From positions 3,224,001-3,288,000 of the forward strand of contig NZ_CP062221.1 in the NCBI RefSeq assembly GCF_021590045.1: a stretch of 64,000 nt of DNA, written 5' to 3'. Numbering within the stretch: position 1 is the first letter of the stretch; each line of letters opens with the position of its first letter. Below the pieces are notes generated by a model. The model did no database searches. It was given only the letters and a program-made list of their open reading frames with translations, and had not been told where the DNA came from. A program made the translations under genes and the position numbers. Origin of the DNA: Cellulomonas palmilytica. GTDB taxonomy: Bacteria > Actinomycetota > Actinomycetes > Actinomycetales > Cellulomonadaceae. Shown in pieces: positions 43,678 to 58,757 of this stretch.

Positions 43678-43683
43678 TAGGAT
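43678..43683 (+). promoter_or_regulatory. -10 box, leaderless LCP gene
   Basis: TAGGAT lies exactly seven bases before the GTG at 43691. It sets the start of the first LCP gene and predicts a leaderless mRNA. Confidence 0.6.
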
Positions 43684-43690
43684 CAACCGC

Positions 43691-44950
43691 GTGACCAGCA
43701 ACCCTGCCTCCTCGGCCCGCCACGCCTCCGCGGCGCGCCCGACGACCGTGCGCCACGCCCGTCACCACCGCACCGCCCGCATCCTGCGCGGTACCGCGCT
43801 GGTGACGGTGGGTCTCCTCGCGTTCGGCGGCACCGCCGCCTACGCCGTCTACGCCCGTCTCAACGGGAACATCAACCACGTCGACGTGTCGGGCCTCATC
43901 GGCCCGCGCCCGACCGGCGGCACCGAGGTCGGCGAGGACCCGAACGCCGGCAAGGACGTCAACGTCCTCCTGATCGGCTCGGACTCGCGCGAGGGCGTCA
44001 ACGGCGAGATCGGCGGTGACGTCGCGGGCGGCATGCGCTCCGACACGACGATCGTCATGCACATCTCGGCGGACCGGGACCGGGTGGAGATGGTCTCCAT
44101 CCCGCGCGACTCGATGGTCGAGATCCCCACGTGCCAGACCACGAAGGGCGAGACGCGCTCGAGCAGCTACGCGATGTTCAACGAGTCGTTCGCGCGCGGC
44201 TGGGACACCGGCCTGGACCTGGAGTCGGCGGCCGCGTGCACGTGGCGGACGGTCGAGGCGAACACGGGCATCACGATCGACGACTTCATGCTGGTCGACT
44301 TCGCGGGCTTCCAGACGATGGTCGACGCGATCGGCGGCGTCCAGATCTGCATCCCGCAGGACATGGACGACCGCAAGGCGAAGCTGCACGTCACGGCCGG
44401 CGAGAAGACGCTGGACGGCAAGACCGCGCTCGCGTTCGCACGCTCGCGGCACAGCCAGGCGAGCGACGGCTCGGACATCGGCCGCATCGGCAACCAGCAG
44501 CGCCTGCTCGCCGCGATGGCCTCGCAGACGCTGTCGAAGAACGTCCTGACCGACTGGACGGACCTGCTCGGCCTGCTCAACGCCGCGACCAAGTCGCTCA
44601 CGACGTCGATGCGGACTCCCGACATGGCCGGGCTCGCCTACAGCGCTCGGAGCATCCGCACTGGCAACATCACCTTCATGACGATCCCGTGGGGTGCGGC
44701 ACCCGACGACAAGAACCGCGTGGTGTGGACCGACGAGGCCGACATCATCTGGTCGAACATCGCCTCGGACACGCCGCTGCTCACGGGCACGTCGCAGGAC
44801 CCCGGCGCCAAGGCGACCCAGGAGCCGACCGCGACCGCGACGCCCACGCAGGGCGAGTCCGCGAAGCCGACGAAGGCGCCGACGCCGAAGGCCACCCGCA
44901 AGGCCGGCCGTGAGGCGTTCACCCTCGACGACAACACGGGCAGCTGCTGA
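43691..44950 (+). CDS. LCP-family glycan-peptidoglycan ligase
   Basis: A 419-residue LytR-CpsA-Psr protein. One membrane anchor is near residues 36-56 (GTALVTVGLLAFGGTAAYAV). The LCP domain carries NVLLIGSDSRE, RSDTTIVMHIS, EMVSIPRDSMVEIP with the catalytic Arg, and ALAFARSRHS with the two Arg that hold the pyrophosphate. A Thr/Pro/Ala/Lys-rich tail ends it. LCP enzymes move lipid-linked glycans onto peptidoglycan. It comes right after the exporter operon and before a second LCP gene, two bases apart, so the pair probably attaches the exported polymer. Confidence 0.93.
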   Translation: MTSNPASSARHASAARPTTVRHARHHRTARILRGTALVTVGLLAFGGTAAYAVYARLNGNINHVDVSGLIGPRPTGGTEVGEDPNAGKDVNVLLIGSDSREGVNGEIGGDVAGGMRSDTTIVMHISADRDRVEMVSIPRDSMVEIPTCQTTKGETRSSSYAMFNESFARGWDTGLDLESAAACTWRTVEANTGITIDDFMLVDFAGFQTMVDAIGGVQICIPQDMDDRKAKLHVTAGEKTLDGKTALAFARSRHSQASDGSDIGRIGNQQRLLAAMASQTLSKNVLTDWTDLLGLLNAATKSLTTSMRTPDMAGLAYSARSIRTGNITFMTIPWGAAPDDKNRVVWTDEADIIWSNIASDTPLLTGTSQDPGAKATQEPTATATPTQGESAKPTKAPTPKATRKAGREAFTLDDNTGSC

Positions 44951-44952
44951 GC

Positions 44953-46290
44953 ATGGCGCGCGACGAGCGGGGGACGCCACCCAGCTTCGCCCCGGGGGCC
45001 GGCGGGAGCCGGCCCTCGGGCGAGGACGCGGTCGTCGTCGGCTCGTCGAGGAAGCCCGGTGCGGCTCCCCGCGCTGCGAGCAGCACACGTCCGACCACCC
45101 CGCGGGGCGGGGGCGCTCCCCCGTCGTTCACCCCCGGCGACGAGATCGCGGGCGCCGCGGCGCCGCGGCGCACGACGGGGCAGCCCCTGGGCGCGGCGAC
45201 GCGCTCCGCGACGTCGGCCGGCCGGCCGGCGGCGGGTCGACCCACCGCGCGCCCGCCGGCCCGGCCCTCGGGTGCGGGGGGTCGTGGTCCGGGCGGTCCC
45301 GCTCGTCCGGCCGGAGCCACGGTCGACGGCGACGACCGGGCGTCTGCCCGGCCGCGCCGCCGCCGGCGGATCGCCCTCGCCGTCGTCGCGCTCGTGCTGG
45401 TCCTCCTGCTCGCGTGGCCCATCGGCCTGCTCGTGTGGGCGAACGGCAATATCCAGCGGACCGAGGCGCTCTCGGGTGCGGACGGCACGCCGGGCACCAC
45501 CTACCTCATCACCGGCTCCGACTCGCGCGCCGACGGCGGCGTCAAGGACGACGGCACGCAGGGTCAGCGCTCGGACACGATCCTCGTGCTGCACGTGCCC
45601 GACAGCGGCCCGACCGCGCTCATCTCGCTGCCGCGCGACACGTACGTCGAGATCCCGGGACACGACCCGAACAAGATCAACGCGGCGTTCGCGTTCGGCG
45701 GCGCGCCGCTGCTCGTCGAGACGGTCGAGCAGCTCACGGGGCTCACGGTCGACCACTACGCCGAGATCGGCATGGCGGGCGTCAAGGACGTCGTCGACGC
45801 GGTCGGCGGCGTGCGCCTGTGCTACGACCGCGACGTCGACGACCGCGACTCGCACATGAAGTGGTCCGCGGGCTGCCACTCCGTCGGCGGCCAGAAGGCG
45901 CTCCAGTTCGCCCGCATGCGCAAGGCGGACCCGCTCGGCGACATCGGCCGCGCGCAACGTCAGCGCCAGCTCGTCGGCGCGGTGCTCGAGAAGGTCGACC
46001 CGAAGTCGCTCGCGCTGCACCCCTCGCAGCAGGTCTCGCTCGCGTCCGCCGCGACGGGCGCGCTGACGGTCGACGAGTCGAGCGACATCGTCGACCTCGC
46101 GCGGCTGGCCCTCGCGTTCAAGGCCGCCAACGGCAAGGGTGGCATCACGGGGACGCCGCCCATCGCGAGCATGGACTACCGCCCCGGCGGGGTCGGGTCG
46201 ACGGTCCAGCTCGACCCGGACAAGACCCCCGCGTTCTGGGTCGCGATCCGCGACGGGAAGCTGGAGCCCGGGACCGTCGGGGACGACTGA
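44953..46290 (+). CDS. LCP-family glycan-peptidoglycan ligase, long N-terminus
   Basis: A 445-residue LCP protein. A cytoplasmic N-terminal extension of about 135 residues is rich in Pro, Gly, Arg and Ala. It is followed by a basic stop (RPRRRRR) and the membrane helix. The LCP domain has YLITGSDSRADGG, RSDTILVLHVP, ALISLPRDTYVEIPG, and ALQFARMRKADPLGDIGR. The extension is longer than in most LCP enzymes and of unknown use. The ATG follows the first LCP gene's stop by two bases. Both may use different acceptors or polymers. Confidence 0.92.
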   Translation: MARDERGTPPSFAPGAGGSRPSGEDAVVVGSSRKPGAAPRAASSTRPTTPRGGGAPPSFTPGDEIAGAAAPRRTTGQPLGAATRSATSAGRPAAGRPTARPPARPSGAGGRGPGGPARPAGATVDGDDRASARPRRRRRIALAVVALVLVLLLAWPIGLLVWANGNIQRTEALSGADGTPGTTYLITGSDSRADGGVKDDGTQGQRSDTILVLHVPDSGPTALISLPRDTYVEIPGHDPNKINAAFAFGGAPLLVETVEQLTGLTVDHYAEIGMAGVKDVVDAVGGVRLCYDRDVDDRDSHMKWSAGCHSVGGQKALQFARMRKADPLGDIGRAQRQRQLVGAVLEKVDPKSLALHPSQQVSLASAATGALTVDESSDIVDLARLALAFKAANGKGGITGTPPIASMDYRPGGVGSTVQLDPDKTPAFWVAIRDGKLEPGTVGDD

Positions 46291-46320: not shown

Positions 46321-47580
46321 TCAGTCGCGGGCCGCGGTCACGATGCCGGCACCGACGGTGCGCAGCGTCGACTCGTCCACCAGGATGAACGACCCGGTCT
46401 CGCGGTTGAGCTCGTACTGGTCCACGAGCACGGGCGCGGCGGTGCGCAGCCGCACCCGACCGATGTCGTTGAGCTCCAGGCTCTCGGCGCCCGGGTCGCG
46501 GTGCAGCGTGTTGATGTCGATGCGGTAGTCGACGCCCGTGACCTTCGCGCGCGTCGAGCGCGTCGTGTGCTTGAGCCCGTAGACCACGCCGGGCCGCAGC
46601 GGTGCGCTCTCGTCCATCCAGCACACCTGCACGTCGAGGTCCTGCGTCGCGTGAGGCGTGTTCGCGGGGCGGCACAGCATGTCGCCGCGGCTGATGTCGA
46701 GCTCGTCGGCGAGCCGCACGACGACCGACATGGGCGGGAACGCGACGTCCACGGGCTCACCGGCCTGCTCGATCGACGCGATCGTCGAGGTGAACCCGCT
46801 GGGCAGCACGACGACGGGGTCGCCCGCCCGCAGGACGCCGCTCGCGACCCGACCCGCGTACCCGCGGTAGTCCCGCGCGGAGGTCGACTGCGGGCGGATG
46901 ACGTACTGCACGGGGAAGCGCACGTCGATGAGGTTGCGGTCGCTCGCGACGTGCAGGTGCTCGAGGTGGCCGAGCAGGGTCGCGCCGTCGTACCAGGGCG
47001 TGTGGACGCTGCGGTCGACGACGTTGTCGCCGAGCAGCGCGGACACCGGGATGAACGTCAGGTCGTGCGTGCGCAGGCGCGCCGCGAAGTCCGCGAAGTC
47101 GGCGCGGATCTCGTCGAACACGTCCTGCGACCAGTCGACGAGGTCCATCTTGTTGACGCACACGACGAGGTGCGGCACGCCCAGCAGGGTCGCGAGGAAC
47201 GCGTGCCGGCGGCTCTGCTCCGTCATGCCCTTGCGCGCGTCGACGAGGATGAGCGCCGCGTCCGCGGTCGACGCGCCCGTGACCATGTTCCGCGTGTACT
47301 GGATGTGCCCCGGGGTGTCCGCGATGATGAACTTGCGCCGCGGCGTGGAGAAGTAGCGGTACGCGACGTCGATCGTGATGCCCTGCTCGCGCTCGGCCCG
47401 CAGGCCGTCGGTGAGCAGCGCGAGGTCGGTGTAGTCGTCGCCCCGGTCGGCGCTGACGCGCTCGACCGCCTCCACCTGGTCGGTGAACAGCGACTTGCTG
47501 TCGTACAGCAGGCGGCCGATCAGCGTCGACTTGCCGTCGTCGACCGAGCCGGCCGTCGCGAACCTCAGCAGATCGCTCAT
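46321..47580 (-). CDS. cysN: Sulfate adenylyltransferase GTPase subunit
   Basis: A 419-residue EF-Tu-like GTPase that drives the ATP sulfurylase CysD. G1 is GSVDDGKST (11-19), G3 is DTPGH (88-92), G4 is NKMD (143-146), and EQGITIDVAYRYFST is the switch region. It has no C-terminal APS kinase fusion, unlike many actinobacterial CysN proteins; the kinase is encoded separately at 53249. With CysD it makes adenylyl sulfate from ATP and sulfate. It is the last gene in a coupled operon that also encodes a sulfotransferase, so its APS probably ends as PAPS for sulfation. Confidence 0.95.
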   Translation of the reverse strand: MSDLLRFATAGSVDDGKSTLIGRLLYDSKSLFTDQVEAVERVSADRGDDYTDLALLTDGLRAEREQGITIDVAYRYFSTPRRKFIIADTPGHIQYTRNMVTGASTADAALILVDARKGMTEQSRRHAFLATLLGVPHLVVCVNKMDLVDWSQDVFDEIRADFADFAARLRTHDLTFIPVSALLGDNVVDRSVHTPWYDGATLLGHLEHLHVASDRNLIDVRFPVQYVIRPQSTSARDYRGYAGRVASGVLRAGDPVVVLPSGFTSTIASIEQAGEPVDVAFPPMSVVVRLADELDISRGDMLCRPANTPHATQDLDVQVCWMDESAPLRPGVVYGLKHTTRSTRAKVTGVDYRIDINTLHRDPGAESLELNDIGRVRLRTAAPVLVDQYELNRETGSFILVDESTLRTVGAGIVTAARD

Positions 47581-47582
47581 GT

Positions 47583-48497
47583 CTAGAAGTACCCCTCGCG
47601 CTTGCGGTCCTCCATCGCGGCCTCGCTCACCCGGTCGTCGCCGCGCGTGGCGCCGCGCTCGGTGAGCCGGGCGGCCGCGATCTCGTCGATCACGTCCTGC
47701 ACCGTCGCGGCGGTCGACTCGACCGCCGCGGTGAGGTTCGCGTCGCCCATCGTGCGGTAGCGCACGCTACGACGCGTGACCGTCTCCCCCGGTCGGGGCT
47801 CGACGAACGCGTTGACGGCGTAGAGCATCCCGTCGCGCTCGACGACGTCCCGCTGCGCGGCGAGGTAGAGATCGGGGATCTCGATGTCCTCCGCGCCGAT
47901 GTACGACCAGATGTCGAGCTCGGTCCAGTTGGACAGCGGGAACACCCGGATCGACTCCCCCGGGTGCACGCGGCCGTTGTAGAGCGACCACAGCTCGGGA
48001 CGCTGGTTCTTCGGGTCCCACTGGCCGAACTCGTCGCGGAACGAGAACACGCGCTCCTTGGCCCGCGCCTTCTCCTCGTCGCGCCGCGCGCCGCCGAACA
48101 GCGCGTCGAAGCCGTTGCGCTCCGCGGCCTCGAGCAGGACCGGCGTCTGGATGCGGTTGCGCGAGCCGCCCTTCTCCTCGCGGACGAGCCCGCGGTCGAT
48201 CGCGTCCTGCACGGACGCGACGACGAGGCGCAGGCCGAGCCGCTCGACGGTCGCGTCGCGGAACGCGACGACCTCGTCGAAGTTCAGGCCCGTGTCGACG
48301 TGCATCACGGGGAACGGGATCCGCGCGGGCGCGAACGCCTTCACCGCCAGGTGCAGCATGACGATCGAGTCCTTGCCGCCCGAGAACAGCAGGCAGGGCT
48401 TGCGCATCTCGGCCGCGACCTCGCGCATCACGTGGATGCTCTCGGACTCGAGAGCCTCGAGGTGGCTCAGCTGGTACTGCGGTCGGGTCGTGGTCAC
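47583..48497 (-). CDS. cysD: Sulfate adenylyltransferase catalytic subunit
   Basis: A 304-residue ATP sulfurylase subunit of the PAPS-reductase-like fold. The PP-loop SGGKDSIVML is at 39-48, MHVDTGLNFDEV lies further on, and GGARRDEEKARAKER and GRVHPGESIRVFPLSNWTE carry the sulfate and CysN contacts. Its length is normal for CysD. The GTG overlaps the cysQ stop by four bases, and the cysN start is two bases after its stop. No PAPS reductase (cysH) or sulfite reductase gene is visible in the window. Confidence 0.95.
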   Translation of the reverse strand: MTTTRPQYQLSHLEALESESIHVMREVAAEMRKPCLLFSGGKDSIVMLHLAVKAFAPARIPFPVMHVDTGLNFDEVVAFRDATVERLGLRLVVASVQDAIDRGLVREEKGGSRNRIQTPVLLEAAERNGFDALFGGARRDEEKARAKERVFSFRDEFGQWDPKNQRPELWSLYNGRVHPGESIRVFPLSNWTELDIWSYIGAEDIEIPDLYLAAQRDVVERDGMLYAVNAFVEPRPGETVTRRSVRYRTMGDANLTAAVESTAATVQDVIDEIAAARLTERGATRGDDRVSEAAMEDRKREGYF

Positions 48498-49300
48498 GAG
48501 ACCCCATCCTCCCGGGTCGACGCCTGGGGGCGTGCATCCGCCGCGACGAGCGCCTGCGCCTTCGCGACGAGGTCCAGCAGCTCGGCGCTGCGTCCGGGCT
48601 CGCACACCAGCAGGTCGGGCAGCCACGGGTCGCGCCGGTTGTACTCGAGCGCGCGGCCGTCCACGCGCGAGCAGTGCAGCCCCGCGGCGGTCGCGACCGC
48701 GACCGGCGCGGCCGAGTCCCACTCGTACTGGCCGCCCGCGTGGACGTACGCGTCGGTCTCGCCCGTCACGACGGACGCGACCTTGACGCCCGCCGAGCCC
48801 ATGGGCACGAGCTCCACGTCCGCCAGGGTCGCGAGCGCGCCGACGAGCGCCGGCGGACGCGACCTGCTGACGGCGAGCCGCAGCGGGCCGTCGTGCCGGG
48901 CGGGCCGTGCGGCGGGTGCGTCGGTCCGCAGCACGACGCCTCGGCCGGGCAGCGCGACCGCGCCCGCGACGAGCCCGTGGCCCCGCTGCCAGAGCGCGAC
49001 GTGCACCGCCCAGTCGTCGCGCCACGAGCCGTCGTCGTGCCGCTCGGCGTACTCGCGCGTGCCGTCGAGCGGGTCGACGACCCACACGCGCTCCGCGTCC
49101 AGCCGGGCGAGGTCGTCGGCCGCCTCCTCCGACAGCACCGCGTCGTACGGCCGCAGGCGCGCGAGCTCGCGCGCGAGGTGGGTCTGGGCCACGGCGTCGC
49201 CGCGCGCGCGCAGGTCGGCGACGTCGCCTCGCTCGCGCTCGGCGAGCAGCACCTCGCCCGCTCCCGCCGCGAGCGCGGCGGCCAGCTCGTGGTCGGTCAT
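48494..49300 (-). CDS. cysQ: 3'(2'),5'-bisphosphate nucleotidase
   Basis: A 268-residue inositol-monophosphatase-fold enzyme that removes the 3' phosphate from PAP, the by-product of every sulfotransferase reaction. Metal-binding motifs are SEEAADD (about 57-63), WVVDPLDGTREY (73-84) and YEWDSAAPVAVA (about 195). Some members also cut PAPS or inositol phosphates. It lies between the sulfotransferase and cysD, overlapping the neighbours by four bases on each side, which strongly favours PAP recycling as its job. Confidence 0.92.
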   Translation of the reverse strand: MTDHELAAALAAGAGEVLLAERERGDVADLRARGDAVAQTHLARELARLRPYDAVLSEEAADDLARLDAERVWVVDPLDGTREYAERHDDGSWRDDWAVHVALWQRGHGLVAGAVALPGRGVVLRTDAPAARPARHDGPLRLAVSRSRPPALVGALATLADVELVPMGSAGVKVASVVTGETDAYVHAGGQYEWDSAAPVAVATAAGLHCSRVDGRALEYNRRDPWLPDLLVCEPGRSAELLDLVAKAQALVAADARPQASTREDGVS

Positions 49301-51258
49301 GCGTCGTCCCTCCGGGAGGTCAGCGTCGTGCGCAGGAGTCGGGCCGCGCCCACGAGCCGCGGCCAGGGTGCGTCGACGACGTCGCCGGGCTCGGCGGTGC
49401 GCGGGGGCCGGAGCACGGTCGTCGGCCTGCCGACGACGGCGGCACCCGAGTCCTCGACCCGCTGGACGAGCAGCTCGGCCAGCGCCGCGACCTGCGGCTG
49501 CAGGTCCTCCGGGACGCCGAGCGGGACCTCGTCGGGACCCGTGACCCAGCGCGCGAGCGCGGTCCGCACCTGCGCGGGCGTGAGGCCGGACGCGCGGCGG
49601 CCGAGCGCGCCGGAGTTGCGCAGGCGGAGCACCGCGGCCTCGCGGTCGCTCAGGGGGCGCGGCGCACGGCCGACGCGGACCACGCCGGTCGGCAGGTCCA
49701 GCATGCGCGCGGGCGCGTCGACGAGCAGCGCGCCGTCGGACGGCCGCGGCACGAGGACCGTGACGTCGCCCGCGCCCACGCGGCGCGACCAGACGCCGAG
49801 CAGGTCCTCGCCGTCCGCCGCCGCGACCGGCACGCTCCCCGGCCCGCCCGCGGCGAGCGCCGCCGCGAGCCAGGACCGCAGCGTCCGCGTCCCGCCCGCG
49901 AGCAGGTGGTCGGCGTAGCAGCCGAGCAGCACGTCGCCCAGCGGGCGCAGCGTCACCAGCACGCGCGCTCCGCGCAGGTCCGCGTCGCGCACCGCGCCCG
50001 GGTCCAGCGCCCAGGCGTCGTCGCTCACGAACGTGCGTCGACCCGCGGCGGGCTCGTCGGACGTGAGGTCCACCCCGTGGGCGCGCAGCACGTCGGCGGA
50101 CCGGGCGAACGCGGCGCGCAGGCGCTGCCCGCCCGCGTGCGGCGGCCCGACGTGGACGAGGCGACCGGACTCGGGCACGAGCCGCACCCCGTCGAGCCGG
50201 TGGCGGCGCTCACGGCCCGCCTGCGCGTCGGCGACGACCGTCTCCGCGCGCTCGAGCAGGCTCGCGAGCGCGATCGCGGCGACGTCCATCGGGACGCTCG
50301 CCGTCGTGTTCGACGCGGGCAGGTCCGACGGCACGCGCGACAGCTCGTCGAGCGATCCGACGACGCGCACGCCGGACGCGCGGACCTCGTCCGCGACGCG
50401 GCGGCCGAGCTCGGCGACGCCCTCGGCGAGCGGCGCCGGGACCGTCGGGCGCGGCGTGCCGGCGGGCGGCACCCAGTCGTGCAGCATGCGCGTCACGGGG
50501 CCGCGGTAGAGCAGGGCACGACGGCGCGCGGCGGGCACGCGCATGCCGCGCGTGCGGACGTTGAGCCGCCGCACGACCTCGCTCTCGGGCAGGGTCATGC
50601 CGCGGTTGCGCTCGCTCACCGCGAGAGTCCCCGCCGGGATCGCGAGCAGCTGCTCGAACACCGAGAACAGGCGCTCCGGTGCGGAGCGCTGCAGCACCAC
50701 CACCGTGACGTCCTCCGGCCCGAAGACCTGCGCCCACCGGTGCGTGAGCCAGGAGCCGTCCGTGCGGTGGAACGTGCGCACACGCTCCGGCCGGCGCAGG
50801 CGCGCCGCGAGCCAGTCGTCGAACGCCGTGGGCTCGCCGTTGCGGACGGCCTGCTGCCACATCGACGGCAGGAACCCGCCCATGTCGCGCAGCGTGAGGA
50901 CGACGTGCGAGCGCGGGCCGACGAGCTCGCGCACGCGTCGCGCCTCGTCGAGGTCGGCCCACGTGAGCTCCTCCGAGCTCAGCAGCACGCGGCTCGTCGT
51001 GTCCGCCTCGAGCGCCGCCCGCAGGTCGCCGAGCCGGTGCTGCCCGGCCGACTGCGTCTCGGCGCTCGCCCACCCGAACAGCGCGCGGAACGCGAGCGCG
51101 TGGTTGACGTCCGTGCCCGGGTACTGCACGCCGCACGCCTGCAGCTGCTCACGCTGGTCGTGGAACGCGCCCTGCACCGACGAGGTGCCCGTCTTGTGCG
51201 CACCGATGTGCACGAGCCGCGTGCCCTCCGGCAGCGGCTCGAGGGTGAGGTCAGCCAC
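49297..51258 (-). CDS. Tandem sulfotransferase-like protein
   Basis: A 653-residue protein made of two copies of a sulfotransferase fold. In the first (about 14-355) RLVHIGAHKTGTSSVQGAF gives the PAPS 5'-phosphate loop (KTGTSS 22-27), and SHVVLTLRDMGGFLPSMWQQ the 3'-phosphate strand. The second (about 365-653) repeats the order, but its loop is VHVGPPHAGGQRLR, without Lys-x-Gly-Thr, so it cannot bind PAPS in the usual way. No signal peptide is seen; it would act in the cytoplasm on lipid-linked or nucleotide-linked sugar. The GTG has ggagg six bases upstream and overlaps the previous gene by eight bases; cysQ follows with a 4-base overlap. Confidence 0.8.
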   Translation of the reverse strand: MADLTLEPLPEGTRLVHIGAHKTGTSSVQGAFHDQREQLQACGVQYPGTDVNHALAFRALFGWASAETQSAGQHRLGDLRAALEADTTSRVLLSSEELTWADLDEARRVRELVGPRSHVVLTLRDMGGFLPSMWQQAVRNGEPTAFDDWLAARLRRPERVRTFHRTDGSWLTHRWAQVFGPEDVTVVVLQRSAPERLFSVFEQLLAIPAGTLAVSERNRGMTLPESEVVRRLNVRTRGMRVPAARRRALLYRGPVTRMLHDWVPPAGTPRPTVPAPLAEGVAELGRRVADEVRASGVRVVGSLDELSRVPSDLPASNTTASVPMDVAAIALASLLERAETVVADAQAGRERRHRLDGVRLVPESGRLVHVGPPHAGGQRLRAAFARSADVLRAHGVDLTSDEPAAGRRTFVSDDAWALDPGAVRDADLRGARVLVTLRPLGDVLLGCYADHLLAGGTRTLRSWLAAALAAGGPGSVPVAAADGEDLLGVWSRRVGAGDVTVLVPRPSDGALLVDAPARMLDLPTGVVRVGRAPRPLSDREAAVLRLRNSGALGRRASGLTPAQVRTALARWVTGPDEVPLGVPEDLQPQVAALAELLVQRVEDSGAAVVGRPTTVLRPPRTAEPGDVVDAPWPRLVGAARLLRTTLTSRRDDA

Positions 51259-51808
51259 GGGCCACCTCCGCGCGGGCCTCGTCGACGAGCGCGATCGCGC
51301 GCTCGAACACCCCCGCGAGCAGGTCACCGACGAGCGCGGCGTCGACCTCGTCGGTCGCGCCCGTCGCGGCGGGGTCGCGCGGCGCGAGCCGCAGCACGTC
51401 GGCGACGACGTCCGCGCGGAGCCGCTCACGCAACGAGCCGGGCTCGCCCACGGGGAGCGCCTGGTTGACGCGGCGGACGAGCTCGAGCGCGGGTGCCGAC
51501 GCCGGGAGGTCGTCGGACGCGACGTCGTCGGAGGTGACACAGGCCTCCCCGACCGACCCCGCCGACCCGACCGACCCGGAGGACCACGCCTCGAACGTGC
51601 GCGCCTCGCCGGCGAGCACGGCACGCACCCAGGCGCGGCGGGCCACGGACTCCTCCGCGAGGGCCTCGCCGGCGACCGGGTCCACCGCGACGGGCTCCTC
51701 GGTGAGCCGCGCGGCGCCCTTCGCGTCGTCGTGCTGGTGGTGACCTGCGGTGATGTCAGAACGTTCGGGGGACGTCAGTGCACTGCCTCTCGTCACGGCC
51801 CGGCGCAC
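51251..51808 (-). CDS. Unrecognised first gene of the sulfation operon
   Basis: A protein of up to 185 residues with no family I recognise. It is acidic and Ala/Glu/Asp/Val-rich, with a Ser/Gly/Val patch (SSGSVGSAGSVG), a likely helical middle (ALELVRRVNQALP), and a final helix VFERAIALVDEARAEVARG. There is no membrane segment or zinc motif. It overlaps the sulfotransferase start by eight bases, so the two are made together. The start is unsure: GTG 51808 or GTG 51796, with a leader of 60-70 bases from the divergent promoter. It may be an adaptor or regulator of the sulfotransferase. Confidence 0.65.
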   Translation of the reverse strand: MRRAVTRGSALTSPERSDITAGHHQHDDAKGAARLTEEPVAVDPVAGEALAEESVARRAWVRAVLAGEARTFEAWSSGSVGSAGSVGEACVTSDDVASDDLPASAPALELVRRVNQALPVGEPGSLRERLRADVVADVLRLAPRDPAATGATDEVDAALVGDLLAGVFERAIALVDEARAEVARG

Positions 51809-51872
51809 GCGGACCGATGTGCTCGCGGCACCCTCGGGGGACGCCGGTGGACCGGCAGCGGGTACCGACCCA

Positions 51873-51879
51873 TACGGTA
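51873..51879. promoter_or_regulatory. Overlapping divergent -10 boxes
   Basis: The plus strand reads TACGGT (51873-51878) and the minus strand TACCGT over 51874-51879. The pyruvyl-transferase gene and the sulfation operon would share this site and could not easily be transcribed at the same moment. Confidence 0.5.
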
Positions 51880-51951
51880 GCGTTCAGCCTCGGCCGGGCC
51901 GCGCCACGTCTCGTCGTGCCCGGGACCGAAATCCTCAGGAGGACATCCCCC

Positions 51952-53211
51952 ATGGGTCGACTGCGATCGACAGCTGGCCGCGCCAAGCGCTCCCTCAAGC
52001 GGAGGGTGCGCAACGTCGTCGCGCCGGGCGTCGCCTCGGACGCCAAGAAGGCCAGCAAGGCCGCGCGCGACGCCGCGGCCTCCGCCGACCTCGCGGAGAG
52101 CGCGCTCGCCGAGGTGCGCCGCATCGCGGGCGGCCTGCCCGGCGGCGTCGCCGCCGCGGCTGCCCGCCCCACGACCGCGAAGGTCGCGGGCCGCAAGCCC
52201 GTCGTCGGGCTCGCCGGGTTCTTCGGCGACGGCAACTACGGCGACGAGCTGTTCCTCGAGGTGTTCAAGCAGCACCTCGGCCCGCACTTCGAGCTCAAGG
52301 TCCTCGCGGACCTGCCGACCTCGCCGTACTTCTCGCGGGACGTCAAGGACGTCGTCGCGGACGTGGACGCGATCGTCATCGGCGGCGGCGACATCCTGCA
52401 GCCGTGGAACCAGGACCCGCGCTACTTCAACCACGCGTTCCTGGCCAAGCCGGTGTTCGTCGTCGGCATCGGCGTGCCCCAGTACACGGGCCCCAACGCG
52501 CCCGAGGAGAAGGAGCACATCGTCGCGCGGCACCGCCGGTTCATGGCGCACCCGAACGTGCGCCGCATCGGTGTGCGTGACGACCAGGCCGCGCTGTGGA
52601 TCCGCGAGCGGCTCGACCCGCCGGGCGAGATCCTCGTGGCGCCGGACATCGTCTCGAGCCTCGACCTGCCGCCCGCGACGAAGCCCGAGGGCGCGCCGAT
52701 CCTCGGCGTCGTGACGCGCTTCCGCCCCAACCGCGCGAAGCCCGACGACTACTCCGAGGTCGTCAAGCTCGCGCAGCACGTGTCCGAGCAGGGCTGGCGC
52801 GTGCGCCAGATCATCCTGGGCACGAACAACGTAGGCAAGCGCGACCTGGCGAACGCCGAGGACTTCGTGTTCGAGGGCAAGGAGGTCGTCTACTCCGAGG
52901 ACCTCGACGACCTGTCGCGCGCGATCGGCGAGTGCACGACGCTCGCGTCGATGAAGTTCCACGGCACGGTGGTCGCGACGATGTACGGCGTGCCGTCGAT
53001 CGTCATGATCCCGACGAACAAGAACATCAACTTCATGCACCGCATCGGGCTCGACGCGCTCGTCTCGAGCTTCGACTCCCCGAAGCTGATCGAGAAGTTC
53101 GAGGGCCGGCCGGAGGTCGCCCCCGCGGACCTCGCGCGGATCCGCCGTCAGGCGACCGAGCACATGCGCGGCCTCGCGAACGCGATCGCCGAGGCGGTCG
53201 TCGCGCGCTGA
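51952..53211 (+). CDS. Polysaccharide pyruvyl transferase family protein
   Basis: A 419-residue protein with the polysaccharide pyruvyl transferase fold. GFFGDGNYGDELFLEVF (near 84) is the N-terminal signature, AIVIGGGDILQPW the second, and a C-terminal half has TTLASMKFHGTVVATMYGVP, which holds the conserved His. Members move pyruvate from phosphoenolpyruvate onto sugars as a negatively charged ketal. A basic, Ala/Lys-rich N-terminal 75 residues (AKKASKAARDAAASADLAES) look like a helical or coiled-coil tail. The ATG has aggagg nine bases upstream. It shares a promoter region with the sulfation operon. Confidence 0.88.
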   Translation: MGRLRSTAGRAKRSLKRRVRNVVAPGVASDAKKASKAARDAAASADLAESALAEVRRIAGGLPGGVAAAAARPTTAKVAGRKPVVGLAGFFGDGNYGDELFLEVFKQHLGPHFELKVLADLPTSPYFSRDVKDVVADVDAIVIGGGDILQPWNQDPRYFNHAFLAKPVFVVGIGVPQYTGPNAPEEKEHIVARHRRFMAHPNVRRIGVRDDQAALWIRERLDPPGEILVAPDIVSSLDLPPATKPEGAPILGVVTRFRPNRAKPDDYSEVVKLAQHVSEQGWRVRQIILGTNNVGKRDLANAEDFVFEGKEVVYSEDLDDLSRAIGECTTLASMKFHGTVVATMYGVPSIVMIPTNKNINFMHRIGLDALVSSFDSPKLIEKFEGRPEVAPADLARIRRQATEHMRGLANAIAEAVVAR

Positions 53212-53230
53212 CGCCCGCACCCGCAACCCC

Positions 53231-53272
53231 GCAGCGGGGGTCGACGCCTCAGAGGCCGTCGACCCCCGCTGC
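53231..53272. terminator. Perfect 16-base-pair hairpin over the cysC stop
   Basis: Arms 53231-53246 and 53257-53272 are perfectly complementary (gcagcgggggtcgacg and its reverse complement) with a 10-base loop. The right arm and the loop contain the last codons and stop of cysC. Lying between convergent genes, it is a strong bidirectional terminator and the best hairpin in the window. Confidence 0.75.
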
Positions 53273-54550
53273 GCGTACCGCCTCCAGCACCGTGTCGACG
53301 GCGCGGCCGATGTCGTCGTGCGACGTGTCCAGCACGACGTCGGCGTCCTGCGGGACCTCGTACGGCGAGGAGACGCCCGTGAACTCGGGCAGGTCTCCCG
53401 CCCGGGCGCGGGCGTACAGGTGCTTGCGGTCCCGCGCCTCGCAGACCTCGAGCGGCGTCGCGACGTGCACGAGCACGAACCCCGCGACGGCCTCGGTGCG
53501 GCGGCGCACGTCGGCGCGGTCCTCCTCGAACGGCGCGATCGCCGCGACGAGCACGATGCCGCCCGCGCCCGCGACGAGCGAGGCGACGTAGCCGATGCGC
53601 CGCACGTTCTGCGAGCGCGACTCGCGGTCGAAGCCGAGGCCCGCGGACAGCATGTGCCGCACCTCGTCGCCGTCGAGCACGGTGACCTGACGCGACACGG
53701 ACGCCTGCAGGCGCTGCGCGACGGCCTTGGCGACCGTCGACTTCCCCGAGCCGGACAGGCCCGTGAAGAGCACCACGGCGCCGGGGCCCGAGCCCGAGTC
53801 GCGCGTCGAGGCGAGCTCGCGCGCCGCCGCGGGCGGGAACTGCGCCTCGAGCACGGCCGCACGGCGCTGCTCGGCCTCGACGTACGCCGCGCGTGCCGCG
53901 CTGGGCGCCTGCGTGAGGTCGAGGACGTCGGTCGCGCCGTACGCGCGCGCGAGCTCGTCGAGCGCGGGCTCGCCGGCCGGCCACGCGAGGCGCTCGAGGC
54001 GCGCGTCGTGCGCCCACGGGACGGCCACGACGTCGACCGGGACGGCCGTCCGGCCCGAGCGCGTGAGCTCGTCCCGCACCGCGGTGGCGGCGCGCACGAC
54101 GCCCGCCGCGGTCACGTCGAGCGCGTGCGCGGGGCGCGGCGGCGCGACGAGGCACAGCAGCAGCACCGCCCCGGCGCCCGCGGCCCGCTCGACGAGCGCG
54201 TCGACCTGGTGGAGACCGAGGACGTCGTCGACGAGCACGCCCAGCACCGGTCCCGGCGCCAGGCGGTCCCGCACGTCGCGCGCGGCCAGGCGCGCCCGCG
54301 GGTCCGCGTCCTCGCCGCCGCGCAGCCCGCGCGGCCGCAGGGGCGCCAACGCCTCACCGCCGCGCTCCCGGACCGCGACCGGGGTGTTCTCGTCGTCGAG
54401 CAGCACGACCGCGCCGTCCGGCGCCGCCGCGACCACGGGGTGCCGCTCGGGCGGGATCGCCCCGCCCAGTGCGAGCTCCACCGCGTCGGCGTCCGTCGCG
54501 CCGAGGACCAGCTGGGGTAGGCCGCTCCAGCGGGTCCACTCGTCGCTCAT
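53249..54550 (-). CDS. cysC: APS kinase with decayed sulfurylase-like N-terminus
   Basis: A 433-residue protein, twice the length of a normal APS kinase. The kinase is the C-terminal 180 residues: Walker A GLSGSGKST (about 262-270), LDGDEVRHMLSAGLGF, RRIGYVASLV, and ATPLEVCEARDRKHLYARA, all intact. It makes PAPS. The N-terminal 250 residues keep the outline of ATP sulfurylase (VLLLCLVAPPRP, VVAVPWAHDARLE, YGATDVLDL) but lack the HxGH and GRD motifs needed for catalysis, so this part is presumably structural or regulatory. The ATG lies eight bases after TAGCCT, a leaderless start. CysDN provides the missing first step. Confidence 0.9.
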   Translation of the reverse strand: MSDEWTRWSGLPQLVLGATDADAVELALGGAIPPERHPVVAAAPDGAVVLLDDENTPVAVRERGGEALAPLRPRGLRGGEDADPRARLAARDVRDRLAPGPVLGVLVDDVLGLHQVDALVERAAGAGAVLLLCLVAPPRPAHALDVTAAGVVRAATAVRDELTRSGRTAVPVDVVAVPWAHDARLERLAWPAGEPALDELARAYGATDVLDLTQAPSAARAAYVEAEQRRAAVLEAQFPPAAARELASTRDSGSGPGAVVLFTGLSGSGKSTVAKAVAQRLQASVSRQVTVLDGDEVRHMLSAGLGFDRESRSQNVRRIGYVASLVAGAGGIVLVAAIAPFEEDRADVRRRTEAVAGFVLVHVATPLEVCEARDRKHLYARARAGDLPEFTGVSSPYEVPQDADVVLDTSHDDIGRAVDTVLEAVRAAGVDGL

Positions 54551-54606: not shown

Positions 54607-56790
54607 TCACCCGTCCGCGGACGCGGTGCTGGGCAGCGGGTCGGGCGTCGTCGTGGTGTCTCGCCCGCCATCGGACGTGCTCGCAGGCGTGCTCGCAGGC
54701 GTGCGAGTGGGCTCGTCGTCGGCTCGCTCGTCGAGGCCCGTGGCCGCGAGGATGCGGTCGACGACGAGCGGGCCGAGCGAGCGCGAGTACGTGGCGGTGA
54801 TGTGCCCCGCGGTGTCGCGGTACGCGAGCACCCCGCCGATGACCACGGGGCACCCGGTGTCCGTGCAGTACAGGTCCTGGATGTCGACGTAACGCGCCCG
54901 CGGCACGCGCTCGACGGCGAGCTCGAGCAGGTCGACGACGGCGAAGCCCTCGTTCAGGTCGATGGTGCAGCCCGCCGGGTCCTGCCCGATGCGCGCGACG
55001 CACGCGAGCGCCGCCTCGCTGACGATCGGGCCGTCGGAGACCGCGACGACCTTCGACCCGCGGCGTGCGACGTCGCGGATCATCTTCTCCATGCCCGGCA
55101 CGCGCGAGAGCTTGTCGGCGCCGATCGCCGACCGGCTGCCGGACGTGATCACCAGGTCGTACGGCTCTCCCTCGAGCAGCTTCGACCGGATCTCCGCGGA
55201 CGTCTCGACGCAGTTGTCGTTGACGTCGCGGCTGAGCGAGCACCCGTTGCCGACCATGACGGTGACGCGCCAGCCACGCTGGTCGGCCTGCTCGAGCAGC
55301 CCGGGCAGGAGCGCCGCGGCGTGCGAGTTCCCGACCACCGCGACGCGCAGGGAGCCGTCCGGGTCGCCGTCCTCGCACGTGCGCGCGCCGGACGTGGGCG
55401 TCGAGTAGCAGTCGTAGGCACGCTCGGTGTCGCGCTCGGCATCCTGCGGGCTCGGGACCATGCCGGCGAACGTGACGCCCGCGCACGCCTCGCGGTGCTC
55501 GAGCGAGAGCGCGCCGCGGCAGTCGGCCTGCACGGCGGGCGGCGCGGTGACGGTCGGCGTGGCGCGCTCCTCGAGCGCGCGCACCGCCGTCGCCGAGCCC
55601 GCGACCACGAGCACCGTGATCGCGGTCGCCGCGACGAGCGGCGTGCGCAGCCGCTGCAGCGTCGCGCGCGGGGGCAGCCCGCCCACGTGCCGGACGGGGT
55701 TCTCGACGAAGTGGTACGCGGGCAGCGCGAGCGCGACGCCCGCGGCGAGCGCCACGGGCACGAACCACGGCGACTCCTCGGCGAGCAGCGCGGGCAGCAG
55801 CACGACGACCGGCCAGTGCCACAGGTACAGCGAGTACGACGCGTCGCCCACGTAGTTCGCGAACCGGTTGGTCAGGGGCCACGGCCCGCGCACGCCCGGG
55901 CCCTCGCCCGCGGCGATGACGAGCGCCGTCGAGAGCACCGGCAGGACCGCCCACGGCGCGGGGAAGCCCGCGTCCTCCCGCACGACGAGCAGCGAGACGA
56001 CGATGCCGGCGAGCCCCACCCACGCGAGGACCGGCCGCGCGCGTCCCAGCGTCATGCCCAGGCGCGCGGCGGCGATCGCGACGAGCGCGCCGATCCCCAG
56101 CTCCCACACGCGGGTCAGCGTCGAGAAGAACGCGTACGTCGGCTGCGCGGACGTCTGCACGACCGCCCACACGAACGACGCGCACACGACCGCGCTCATC
56201 GCGGCGAACAGCGCCCGACCGTGCCGCGCGTTGCGGTCCCGACCCGCCGCGCGGCGCGCCGTGAGCACCAGGAGGCCGAGCATGAGCCACGGCCAGACGA
56301 AGTAGAACTGCTCCTCGACCGACAGCGACCAGAAGTGCTGCACGGGCGAGGGCGGCAGGCCCTGGGCGAAGTAGTCCGTGCCCTCGCGGGCGAACCGCCA
56401 GTTCACGACCGTGAGCGCCGCGGCGATCGCGTCGCGCACCGTGCTCGCGAGGCGGCTGCCGCCCACGAGCACCGCGGTGAGCCCCACCGTCACGGCGAGC
56501 GTGAGGAGCGCGTTGGGCAGGATGCGGCGCACGCGGCGCGCGTAGAAGCCGCGGAACGAGATGGTGCCGCTGCGCCGGTGCTCGCGCAGCAGGAGCCCTG
56601 TGATGAGGTACCCGCTGATGACGAAGAACACGTCGACGCCGACGAACCCGCCGTGCGGCCACCCGATCACGTGGTCGGCCATCACGGCGAGCACGGCCAC
56701 CGCGCGCAGCCCCTGGACGTCCCGCCGGCGCGCCGCCGGGGTCGGTCGCTCGGCCGAGGCGGCCACGGCCTCCGCGGTCGCCGACGTCAT
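54607..56790 (-). CDS. OafA-type acyltransferase with SGNH domain
   Basis: A 727-residue membrane acyltransferase. RRDVQGLRAVAVLAVMADH opens the acyltransferase-3 part with its conserved Arg and His. FVGVDVFFVISGYLITGLLL, FYARRVRRILPNAL and SVEEQFYFVWP follow. About ten membrane segments fill residues 20-400. The C-terminal part is an extracytoplasmic SGNH domain: VVGNSHAAALLPG near 483 and YRDTAGHITATYS near 655. OafA-like enzymes transfer acetyl groups from inside the cell to surface polysaccharide. The ATG at 56790 has gagg five bases upstream; a longer frame before it holds the leader hairpin and is rejected. Confidence 0.92.
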   Translation of the reverse strand: MTSATAEAVAASAERPTPAARRRDVQGLRAVAVLAVMADHVIGWPHGGFVGVDVFFVISGYLITGLLLREHRRSGTISFRGFYARRVRRILPNALLTLAVTVGLTAVLVGGSRLASTVRDAIAAALTVVNWRFAREGTDYFAQGLPPSPVQHFWSLSVEEQFYFVWPWLMLGLLVLTARRAAGRDRNARHGRALFAAMSAVVCASFVWAVVQTSAQPTYAFFSTLTRVWELGIGALVAIAAARLGMTLGRARPVLAWVGLAGIVVSLLVVREDAGFPAPWAVLPVLSTALVIAAGEGPGVRGPWPLTNRFANYVGDASYSLYLWHWPVVVLLPALLAEESPWFVPVALAAGVALALPAYHFVENPVRHVGGLPPRATLQRLRTPLVAATAITVLVVAGSATAVRALEERATPTVTAPPAVQADCRGALSLEHREACAGVTFAGMVPSPQDAERDTERAYDCYSTPTSGARTCEDGDPDGSLRVAVVGNSHAAALLPGLLEQADQRGWRVTVMVGNGCSLSRDVNDNCVETSAEIRSKLLEGEPYDLVITSGSRSAIGADKLSRVPGMEKMIRDVARRGSKVVAVSDGPIVSEAALACVARIGQDPAGCTIDLNEGFAVVDLLELAVERVPRARYVDIQDLYCTDTGCPVVIGGVLAYRDTAGHITATYSRSLGPLVVDRILAATGLDERADDEPTRTPASTPASTSDGGRDTTTTPDPLPSTASADG

Positions 56791-56837
56791 GCGGCCTCGT
56801 TCGTCGTGGCCATCGTCCTGGGGGCTCCCTCCCGCAC

Positions 56838-56860
56838 GGCCCGCCTCCTGACGGCGGGCC
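56838..56860 (-). other. Leader hairpin upstream of the acyltransferase
   Basis: A perfect 8-base stem (ggcccgcc/ggcgggcc) with a 7-base loop lies between the promoter and the start of the acyltransferase gene on the minus strand. It is a candidate leader structure; nothing shows that it regulates. Confidence 0.35.
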
Positions 56861-56873
56861 TGAGCGCTCCGGA

Positions 56874-56879
56874 AAGATA
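56874..56879 (-). promoter_or_regulatory. -10 box of the acyltransferase gene
   Basis: TATCTT on the minus strand, in a short AT-containing patch, about 85 bases before the ATG. Confidence 0.4.
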
Positions 56880-56962
56880 CCGCCAAGTAAGCAGCACCTC
56901 ATGACGACGCAGGTGGGCGGGCGTCGTCCGGCACGCGCGCACGGCGGCGGTCCGCGCTCCGG

Positions 56963-56968
56963 TACCCT
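56963..56968 (+). promoter_or_regulatory. -10 box, leaderless pyruvyl-transferase gene
   Basis: TACCCT lies exactly seven bases before the GTG at 56976. It fixes the start of the gene and predicts a leaderless mRNA. Confidence 0.55.
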
Positions 56969-56975
56969 CGGCCCG

Positions 56976-58757
56976 GTGGACGAGGCTGGCGACTACCTGC
57001 GGCGCGTCGGTGGCGTGCACGCGTTCCAGTGGAACCCGCTGCGCGAGATCGACGGCGAGCCGCAGCTGCTGAACAACTTCGGCGACCTGCTCGGCCCCCT
57101 CGTGGTCGAGCTCGTGCTCGAGTCGATCGCGCCGGGCACCCGGCTGGACGAGACCCCCGAGCGGCGCGTCGTGTCCGTCGGCTCGGTCATGCACTTCGCG
57201 CGCCCGCGCGACGTGGTGTGGGGCACGGGCATCAACGGCAAGGTGACGAACGCGCGCGTGCACGGCGAGCGCAAGCTCGACGTCCGCGCGGTGCGCGGCC
57301 CGCTGTCCGCGGCCTACATGACCGCGCGCGGCATCGAGGTGCCCGAGGTCTACGGCGACCCGGCGATGCTCCTGCCGATGCTCATGCCCGAGCTCGCGCG
57401 CTGGGCGCGCCACCCGGTGACCGACCTGCTCGTCGCCCCGAACCTCAACGACCTCCGCTCGGCCGACCTCCCCGGCTCGACCCCCGCGTGGCCCGTGGAC
57501 CGCGAGGCCGGTCAGCGCCTGCTCGTCCCCACCGACCCGGTGCGCACGGTGCTGCGCACCATCGCACAGTCCCGCTTCGTGGTCGGGTCGTCCCTGCACG
57601 CCGTGATCATCGCGGACGCGCTCGGCATCCCCGCGCGGTTCGTCGCGTCCGCGCACGAGTCCGTGTTCAAGTACCGCGACTACCTCGCGGGCACCGGCCG
57701 TCCCCTCACCCGCATCGCGGGCTCGGTCGAGCAGGCGCTCGAGCTCGGCCCGCACGAGCCCCCGGTGATCGACCTCGAGCGGCTGCTCGCGGCGTTCCCG
57801 CGCGACGTGTGGGCGCTCGGCTCGCGGCCGACCGGCTGGGCGGGGCGCGAGCTCGGCGTCGCGCGCTTCCCGGGCGTCGTCACGAGCGACCTGCTGCGCA
57901 TGACGCGCGACCAGCTGTCGGCCGACGACCTGCGCGCGCGGTGGCTCGACCAGCTCGTGCCGCGTGCCGTGGCCGCCGCGACCGGCGAGGAGGTCGCCCC
58001 GTTCGTCCTCGACCCGACCGACCGCCCCGCGGGAGCACCGCCGGCCGCGGCCGAGCCCGACGACGCCCCCACCGACGAGGCGGAGCCCGACGAGCCACCC
58101 GCCGACCCGGCCGACGACGAGGTGCCCGGCGCGGGCCCGTCCGACGAGGAGGGACTCGACGAGGACGCACCCGAGGAGGCCCCCGAGGACCCGCTCGAGG
58201 TCGCTGCGACCTACCGCGAGCTCGTCGTGCCCGGGCTCGACACCACGACGCTCGACGACGGCCTGCGCGACCTCGCGGAGCTCGTGCAGCGCCGCGACGC
58301 GGCACGGCTCGCGGTCGCGGCGCGCCTGCACGGCCGCCCGGCGGCCGCCGAGCTGCGCGCGCACCGCCCGGCCGCGGGCGGGTGGGTCGTGAGCCTCACC
58401 GTGCAGGTGCCGCACGTGCGCGGCGGGATCGACGAGCTCGCGCTCGTGCTGCGCGCGCAGGGCTCGGACGCGACCGTCGTCGTGCCCGTACCGCGCTCGC
58501 CGTTCCACGCCCGGCAGTGGCACCTCGACGTCGACGTCCTCGTGCCGAGGCACGCGCTCGAGTCCGCGGCCGCGAGCGCGCCCGGCAGCGACCGCTGGGA
58601 CGTGCACGTCCTGCTCGTCGAGGGCCACGGCGCACGCTCCGAGGTCCCGCTCGCGCCGCGCGGGACGCTCGGCCTGGTCATGTCCGGCGCGGGCGGCGAG
58701 ACCCCGCCCCCGACCGCCTGGACGCTCGTCGTCGACCCGACCGCCGTCCCGGCGTGA
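56976..58757 (+). CDS. Polysaccharide pyruvyl transferase-like protein, extended
   Basis: A 593-residue protein whose first 310 residues are a pyruvyl transferase fold: FQWNPLREIDGEPQLLNNFG, RRVVSVGSVMHFARPRDVVW, VRGPLSAAYMTARGIEVPEV, and SRFVVGSSLHAVIIADALGIP with the conserved His. A strongly acidic linker (about 350-410, rich in Asp, Glu, Pro) joins it to a C-terminal beta-rich domain of about 180 residues that is not part of the family. The same kind of beta domain ends the glycosyltransferase at 59928. The GTG 56976 is supported by the -10 box; the next gene is 15 bases downstream. Confidence 0.85.
   Translation: MDEAGDYLRRVGGVHAFQWNPLREIDGEPQLLNNFGDLLGPLVVELVLESIAPGTRLDETPERRVVSVGSVMHFARPRDVVWGTGINGKVTNARVHGERKLDVRAVRGPLSAAYMTARGIEVPEVYGDPAMLLPMLMPELARWARHPVTDLLVAPNLNDLRSADLPGSTPAWPVDREAGQRLLVPTDPVRTVLRTIAQSRFVVGSSLHAVIIADALGIPARFVASAHESVFKYRDYLAGTGRPLTRIAGSVEQALELGPHEPPVIDLERLLAAFPRDVWALGSRPTGWAGRELGVARFPGVVTSDLLRMTRDQLSADDLRARWLDQLVPRAVAAATGEEVAPFVLDPTDRPAGAPPAAAEPDDAPTDEAEPDEPPADPADDEVPGAGPSDEEGLDEDAPEEAPEDPLEVAATYRELVVPGLDTTTLDDGLRDLAELVQRRDAARLAVAARLHGRPAAAELRAHRPAAGGWVVSLTVQVPHVRGGIDELALVLRAQGSDATVVVPVPRSPFHARQWHLDVDVLVPRHALESAAASAPGSDRWDVHVLLVEGHGARSEVPLAPRGTLGLVMSGAGGETPPPTAWTLVVDPTAVPA

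Follow-up and report, generated by a model that had tools for sequence, protein, structure and literature searches.

A second sulfate activation gene set beside a tandem sulfotransferase in Cellulomonas palmilytica, a candidate cassette for sulfation of a wall glycopolymer

What is activated sulfate used for when the genes that activate it lie in one run with a sulfotransferase? The question is raised by a locus of Cellulomonas palmilytica contained in a stretch of 64,000 nucleotides (hereafter the window; bases 3224001-3288000 of one 3,834,012-base contig, G+C 75.8%), for which a first-pass annotation had suggested a sulfated wall polymer. The locus is read here as a cassette dedicated to sulfating a wall glycopolymer, most likely a polymer of the 2-keto-3-deoxynononic acid (Kdn) type, i.e. 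a sulfated teichulosonic acid, and this reading is regarded as probable. The genes at its centre, which involve adenosine 5'-phosphosulfate (APS), 3'-phosphoadenosine 5'-phosphosulfate (PAPS) and 3'-phosphoadenosine 5'-phosphate (PAP), are the following.

46321..47580, minus strand: cysN, GTPase subunit of ATP sulfurylase, cassette copy (GTP_EFTU, E 4.6e-42; TIGR02034, 549 bits, cut-off 336)
47583..48497, minus strand: cysD, catalytic subunit of ATP sulfurylase, cassette copy (TIGR02039, 450 bits, cut-off 397)
48494..49300, minus strand: cysQ, PAP phosphatase (Inositol_P, E 1.4e-27; solved PAP phosphatase 5djf, E 7e-64)
49297..51258, minus strand: tandem sulfotransferase of 653 aa (motifs and modelled fold of domain 1)
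50224..51258, minus strand: sulfotransferase domain 1, PAPS-site motifs intact
49297..50223, minus strand: sulfotransferase domain 2, degenerate, P-loop lysine and 3'-phosphate-site serine lost (alignment A1)
51251..51685, minus strand: small protein of 144 aa, first gene of the operon (GTG start; an earlier GTG at 51808 is possible)
53249..54550, minus strand: cysC, APS kinase (PF01583 (APS_kinase), E 7.1e-55)

The genes for the 144-aa protein, the sulfotransferase, CysQ, CysD and CysN are transcribed in that order from the minus strand (46321-51685), and their junctions in the DNA are, in the same order, an 8-bp overlap, a 4-bp overlap (ATGA), a 4-bp overlap (GTGA) and a 2-bp gap. Gene calls and junctions thus agree with the run of five genes, overlapping or at most 2 bp apart, that had been annotated, an arrangement as expected of one operon. 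cysC, annotated as close by, is indeed near and on the same strand; however, it stands outside the operon, separated from it by a pyruvyltransferase gene (51952-53211, plus strand) convergent with cysC. The frames of cysC, cysD, cysN and cysQ are open and intact. CysQ scores below the NCBIfam cut-off for CysQ (80 vs 229 bits). The N-terminal ~250 residues of CysC (window 53801-54550) matched no family, both printed alignments to solved structures begin at residues 213 and 256, and an N-terminal extension is also present in some relatives; this segment may perhaps resemble a worn ATP sulfurylase. A CysN-CysC fusion like that of mycobacteria was considered and ruled out, being absent from the window. 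The 144-aa protein had no Pfam or NCBIfam match, and the five proteins found with it, one of them near-identical and both of those with a source name from Cellulomonas, gave no function.

Assimilation to cysteine had been judged the less likely purpose on the ground that no cysH or sulfite reductase (sir) gene was visible, and a tblastn search with the copies of cysH and sir from the same genome located neither in the window. The window therefore lacks what defines an operon for assimilatory sulfate reduction, cysDN together with cysH and sulfite reductase, and has the make-up of a PAPS supply cassette, with cysD, cysN, cysC and cysQ together and away from cysH and sir. When the rest of the genome was searched, a separate sulfite reductase-cysH-cysD-cysN cluster was found at 2.775-2.780 Mb, followed by a siroheme-synthase-like frame, so that the cassette cysDN exists beside a complete assimilatory set. 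The finding that was to tell against sulfation, a cysH-sir operon nearby with no other cysDN, is thus not what the genome holds: the cluster lies 0.5 Mb from the window and has a cysDN of its own. Its CysH carries two cysteine pairs, CCxxRK and GCxxCT, which we take to be the mark of APS reductases, and it looks like an enzyme of that kind. In NCBIfam, PRK02090 (a PAPS-reductase model) and cysH were over their cut-offs and APS_reductase fell short (218/235 bits), which does not settle the type, and genome comparison is the better evidence. Among 81 genomes of the genus, PF01507 genes are present in 55 and CysC (E <=1e-15) in seven, all of them among those 55; assimilation in the 48 without CysC should therefore proceed without PAPS. 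A search of the genome of C. palmilytica for APS kinase gave a single full-length match, CysC of the window, and one more that spans model positions 2-41 alone at 22.4 bits, just over the cut-off. Taken with the 48 genomes, this indicates that PAPS should be made for transfer only, barring an unknown PAPS-making enzyme; the flux of PAPS is what we infer from these genes.

Linkage was assessed in stretches of ~20 kb around CysC in 54 CysC genomes besides that of the window, some of them off-centre or limited by contig ends. Within 10 kb of cysC, cysD was found in 45, cysN in 45, cysQ in 44, Wzm and Wzt together in 33, a sulfotransferase in nine, and cysH or sir in none of the 54. Nine had no cysDN near cysC: in five of these a contig end is no more than about 1.2 kb from CysC, G186 is ambiguous, and G010, G039 and G071 look like true exceptions. 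Two of the latter, G039 and G071 (L142 and L143, same genus), have a stand-alone CysC with no cysDN or sulfotransferase match in the stretch. By comparison, 14 control stretches of 10-20 kb around assimilatory genes contained sir and cysH in all 14 and cysDN in 13, and gave no cysC, cysQ, sulfotransferase, exporter, LytR-CpsA-Psr (LCP) or NeuB match. A CysD tree of 34 rows, labelled by their locus and with assimilatory rows from one genus, divided 21 cassette copies from 13 assimilatory copies by one branch with support 100/100, the cassette rows including three Chloroflexota copies and one from Propionibacteriaceae; the CysD of the window shares 82% identity with a Chloroflexota cassette copy vs 69% with its own assimilatory copy. 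By this tree cassette CysD is a clade apart from the assimilatory one.

These results bear on the possibility that the cassette is a second assimilation or sulfate-scavenging set feeding cysteine synthesis. CysDN supplies APS to reductases also, and one genome discussed below, G029, speaks for such a use; however, CysC and CysQ are dispensable for APS reduction, no CysC stretch has cysH or sir, and the CysD clades are separate. Assimilation was rejected as the purpose on the separate sir-cysH-cysDN cluster, the assimilating relatives that lack CysC, the linkage counts and the CysD tree, in keeping with the earlier judgement, and is the least probable of the explanations considered.

Co-occurrence ties the sulfotransferase to CysC. 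Among 221 genomes of the family, the sulfotransferase was detected in 24 (E <=1e-10) and CysC in 55 (E <=1e-15), and all 24 fall among the 55, with none among the other 166 (Fisher p 3e-17, a value inflated by relatedness); by genus, the sulfotransferase occurs in 6/25, all among the 11/25 with CysC (Fisher p 0.003). A profile search gave further sulfotransferase matches in 10/31 other CysC genomes vs 0/31 CysC-less genomes, the latter hand-picked, many of them for having NeuB. All but one of the ten are weak, with best E values of 1e-8 to 1e-18, and mostly over the P-loop half, and in eight of the ten genomes a sulfotransferase match lies within 8 kb of NeuB. Absences hold at the sensitivity of the searches, in which 5 (sulfotransferase), 16 (CysC) or 30 (profile search) candidates were scored per genome; in a control, CysC was detected in 6/14 known genomes at E 1e-15 vs 11/14 at E 0.001. 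The protein searches scored those candidates sharing most words (7993, 7995 and 7996), and of 120 relatives listed, alignments A1, A2, A3 and A4 used 16, 67, 20 and 66, respectively.

Gene order is also retained. All five sulfotransferase-bearing genomes of the genus, the window included, share the order cysC, sulfotransferase(s), cysQ, cysD, cysN, LCP2, LCP1, with the pyruvyltransferase and 144-aa protein genes inserted between cysC and the sulfotransferase in the window and in C. uda. The loci of the best 80 of 280 relatives, all in named genomes, include ten with cysC near a sulfotransferase, namely C. uda, eight Chloroflexota and one Propionibacteriaceae; none of the Streptomyces loci among the 80 is of this kind. 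The neighbourhood comparison that had been proposed thus finds the cassette recurring beside polysaccharide genes in relatives. A TauE/SafE permease match occurs in 30 of the 54 CysC stretches, confirmed by Pfam in the two examined, in which cysQ and cysC flank it, and the gene adjoins cysC in other genera (L147 2844-4004; L171 11210-12304). By analogy with what is described for Cobetia, the cassette of other genera may include its own sulfate carrier.

The sulfotransferase, annotated as tandem, is indeed the product of an internal duplication (27% identity over 304 aa, E 3e-9); however, its second domain looks catalytically dead. In domain 1, K22, R124 and S132 are invariant across 67 rows, and the motifs are the 5'-phosphosulfate P-loop and the R-x7-S 3'-phosphate site, together the PAPS site. 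In domain 2 both PAPS-site residues are lost in 4/4 Cellulomonas-type tandems and kept in 7/7 other tandems (alignment A1), and from this pattern domain 2 would, with high probability, have no activity. In a tree of the domains the degenerate ones are on long branches with unreliable placement, and a single origin is neither shown nor excluded. Degenerate domains accompany intact ones in two forms, fused in the C. uda group (window 49297-50223) and separate in G040 and G042 (L038 10565-11644; L039 9550-11385). Naming the enzyme through a sequence family was tried and dropped, as nothing exceeded a Pfam or NCBIfam cut-off: Pfam gave a single sub-threshold sulfotransferase match (PF17784, E 0.059, 13.6 bits, cut-off 22.8) and NCBIfam none. 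A search of profile A3 against solved-structure sequences returned two chance-level matches, with no sequence-level match to heparan sulfate enzymes.

The assignment as a sulfotransferase is therefore drawn from the motifs and the modelled fold of domain 1. A model of both domains was of low confidence, with a poor second domain and tangled PDB matches, none of them at E <=0.001 (the first being a heparan sulfate N-sulfotransferase at 1.1e-3), and domain 1 was then modelled alone. On re-examination of Foldseek's own list, to which these comparisons apply and outside which families can still match, the fold closest to the domain 1 model was that of heparan sulfate (glycan) sulfotransferases, the natural-product sulfotransferases StaL, Teg12 and curacin also being among the matches.

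The cassette lies amid the following polysaccharide genes.

40188..41297, minus strand: Wzt-type exporter ATPase (PF00005, E 1.8e-22)
41275..42144, minus strand: Wzm-type exporter permease, tentative (adjoins the ATPase gene; NF050109 galactan_ABC_perm, E 1e-12, 48 bits, cut-off 380; no Pfam match)
42152..43342, minus strand: glycosyltransferase family 2 (PF00535, E 1.1e-18)
43577..44950, plus strand: LCP ligase 1 (PF03816, E 4e-45)
44953..46290, plus strand: LCP ligase 2 (PF03816, E 1e-43)
51952..53211, plus strand: polysaccharide pyruvyltransferase 1, divergent from the operon (PF04230, E 4.2e-20)
54607..56886, minus strand: acyltransferase-3 and SGNH protein, glycan O-acylation (PF01757, PF19040)
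56901..58757, plus strand: polysaccharide pyruvyltransferase 2 (PF04230, E 1e-12)
58773..59864, plus strand: glycosyltransferase (PF13692)
62344..63486, minus strand: glycosyltransferase family 2 (PF00535)
63679..64000, plus strand: cytidylyltransferase-HAD phosphatase fusion, Kdn type, running past the window (L213 9679-10914; PF02348 and HAD domains)

The sugar-acid genes at the right end of the window, a likely Kdn-type nonulosonic acid component, were missed in the first-pass annotation. The fusion aligns from about window 63679, its start codon not being settled, and NeuB follows just past the window (about L213 10967-11863 by tblastn; match at 3289099-3289806, 1.1 kb beyond the window end), so that a nonulosonic acid synthase and a cytidylyltransferase, the pair taken to mark a teichulosonic acid locus, are found at and just past this end. 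The run of cytidylyltransferase-phosphatase, NeuB, an unassigned gene and a DUF6716 putative glycosyltransferase recurs in all five sulfotransferase genomes of the genus (in C. uda on another contig) and in other genera. The unassigned gene (L213 11910-12881) is conserved, with relatives in many more actinobacteria, Nonomuraea, Streptosporangium and Nocardiopsis being among those listed; it is a candidate nonulosonic acid transferase, with no credible Pfam match and named relatives listed as hypothetical or uncharacterized. NeuB was detected in 64 of the 221 family genomes, 37 of which also have CysC. In 33 of these the two genes share a contig, and in 31 of the 33 they are 5.6-15.6 kb apart, G161 and G071 being the exceptions. 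Elsewhere in the window, the proteins encoded at 21971-29140 include two SpoIID members and one Amidase_2 member; two of these three carry CWB2 wall-binding repeats.

The computable tests, namely the separate assimilatory cysDN and the recurrence of the cassette, favour the sulfated wall polymer that had been suggested, the wall step itself being one that we infer. The parts of the reading differ in strength: the acceptor of sulfate is very probably a glycan, the polymer is likely to be attached to the wall, and the balance of evidence tilts towards the Kdn polymer as the sulfated one.

Several findings weigh against this reading. The Kdn link is not general, since 8/24 sulfotransferase genomes have no NeuB match; together with the 27 NeuB genomes without CysC, this makes sulfation and sugar acid separable modules. 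The phosphatase half of the fusion is below both relevant cut-offs and scores higher with KdsC (98/208 bits) than with the KDN-9-phosphatase NF058599 (89.6/180 bits, E 2e-25). G041 and G052, with no CysC, sulfotransferase or NeuB match, have the glycosyltransferase-exporter-LCP block without the cassette, which is therefore accessory beside that block; the block, 11-13 kb from cysC in the window, may serve another polymer. Foldseek itself places first for domain 1 a bacterial sulfotransferase of unknown substrate, 3rnl (E 1.7e-5), and just two of its matches reach E 0.001. PAPS could also be used by a second sulfotransferase, unrelated to the first (PF13469, 51 bits in all) and encoded in another cluster at 847 kb. 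The sulfotransferase of C. uda NBRC 3747 is frameshifted in its record near residue 62 (L037 about 10591), either by assembly error or by real damage. Finally, G029 has sir and cysH without cysDN in a 20-kb stretch (L141), and the only cysD found in it is the cassette copy, which may feed assimilation too, one set serving both uses.

The exporter/LCP block of G041 and G052 also lends itself to a product other than a wall-bound Kdn polymer, either a loose exopolysaccharide or capsule or, from the Wzm/Wzt locus, a polymer of the galactan type. The permease weakly resembles galactan exporters, Promicromonospora citrea 665T is reported to have a pyruvylated, acetylated galactan that would match the acyltransferase and pyruvyltransferases (PMC6801904), and the sulfated capsules reported from Vibrio and Cobetia use the same cassette logic. 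This is nevertheless considered unlikely, as LCP genes adjoin the cassette in 5/5 sulfotransferase genomes of the genus and the linkage of NeuB to CysC is tight in several genera. Sulfation of a small molecule, glycolipid or natural product, to which StaL, Teg12 and curacin among the fold matches and the natural-product-like neighbours of the second sulfotransferase would point, is rated as improbable. The neighbours in question (cluster L196, sulfotransferase at 8874-9965) are a class-II DAHP (3-deoxy-D-arabino-heptulosonate 7-phosphate) synthase, an Ldh_2 dehydrogenase and an AMP-binding enzyme, and the product there is perhaps a sulfated natural product. That the enzyme is inactive and the cassette a relict is suggested by the degenerate domain 2 and the C. 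uda frameshift; however, domain 1 retains its motifs, three other strains have the protein at 74-85% identity and the cysC, cysD, cysN and cysQ frames are whole, and this explanation is held to be very improbable.

For the sulfated wall glycopolymer, the proposed route is as follows. CysD and CysN would convert sulfate and ATP to APS, and CysC would convert APS to PAPS in the cytoplasm. The sulfotransferase, with domain 1 active and domain 2 a dead partner, would place sulfate on a sugar hydroxyl of a cytoplasmic lipid-linked polymer, which may also carry pyruvate ketals and acyl groups, and CysQ would remove PAP and relieve its inhibition. Export by ATP-binding cassette (ABC) transporters suits PAPS chemistry, the chains being finished inside the cell, and would most simply proceed through the neighbouring Wzm/Wzt-type exporter, which is no more than a candidate, since its block exists without the cassette elsewhere; LCP ligases would then fix the polymer to the wall. 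The enzymes, a second independent cysDN, a single full-length CysC, co-occurrence and linkage are evident at the level of sequence, and the organism of the window, a relative of C. uda, probably puts sulfate on its cell wall. A bolder version, held tentatively and at somewhat less than even chance, is that a self-contained cassette for sulfate uptake, activation and PAP recycling, with its own CysDN lineage, is family-wide, is tied to Kdn-polymer loci and makes sulfated teichulosonic acids, and that in the C. uda group the sulfotransferase is fused with a retained dead sister domain whose role is to direct chain binding or to regulate the active domain. If true, it would give Gram-positive bacteria their first pathway to a sulfated wall polymer defined at gene level, with a pseudo-sulfotransferase partner. 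The locus and its relatives would provide a concrete gene set for such a polymer, CysC with a second cysDN beside NeuB would serve as a genomic marker predicting actinobacteria with sulfated walls, and bacterial sulfotransferases with a heparan-sulfate-enzyme-like fold would be supplied; the arrangement suggests that cells can keep the activation of sulfate for sulfation apart from cysteine synthesis.

Among known systems, Promicromonospora is a close relative in the same order, and the primary paper on the P. citrea 665T polymer is reportedly Dmitrenok 2017. The wall polymer of this strain is described as a Kdn-teichulosonic acid in which Kdn is 7,9-pyruvylated and glucose 3-sulfated (PMC6801904). 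Its sulfate, pyruvate and Kdn correspond to the sulfotransferase, pyruvyltransferases, NeuB, cytidylyltransferase-phosphatase and glycosyltransferases predicted here, and the presence of genes for sugar acid synthesis, for pyruvylation and sulfation and for LCP ligation in a single region would fit a polymer of this type; however, the polymer was reported chemically, with no genes in the available text of PMC6801904, whereas the organism of the window is known from genes alone. The earlier remark that sulfated surface glycans are little known in Micrococcales thus needs qualifying, since this polymer was already reported, although no genes were found assigned to it. In the literature searched, no paper was found assigning genes to a sulfated Gram-positive wall polymer or combining a sulfotransferase with LytR-CpsA-Psr; the kind of polymer is already known chemically and the gene-level assignment is apparently new. 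The heparan sulfate N- and 3-O-sulfotransferases differ in being animal enzymes, at 11-17% identity.

The teichulosonic acid locus of Streptomyces coelicolor (SCO4873-SCO4882; PMC13011467) likewise concerns a Kdn-containing actinomycete wall polymer, but one of galactose and Kdn (PMC7831098) with no sulfate described in the parts of these sources available. The wps-1 cluster of Actinoplanes missouriensis encodes two predicted sulfotransferases with an adjacent sulfate adenylyltransferase/APS kinase gene (PMC13390465) and is likewise an actinomycete polysaccharide cluster adjoined by sulfate activation; it differs in its Wzx/Wzy pathway and sporangium matrix, sulfation there is only predicted, and the accessible part of that account has no second cysDN or LCP. 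According to its authors, cyanobacteria are the only bacteria from which sulfated polysaccharides have been reported; the accounts for P. citrea, Vibrio and Cobetia contradict this. The capsule loci of Vibrio sp. KMM 8419 (second cysC, cysN and cysD, sulfotransferases, ABC exporter; PMC11641403) and Cobetia marina KMM 1449 (cysNC, cysD, cysQ, sulfate permease, sulfotransferases, ABC exporter; PMC11766843) resemble the window in that a single polysaccharide locus unites a PAPS-making set with sulfotransferases and an ABC exporter, but serve marine capsules of determined structure with kps transport, the window being known from genes alone. In mycobacteria, according to the available part of PMC4373884, a single CysDN complex, with CysC fused to it, supplies two branches, APS for cysteine and PAPS for sulfotransferases; the same two branches are predicted here, whereas the genome of the window has a second CysDN and a separate CysC.

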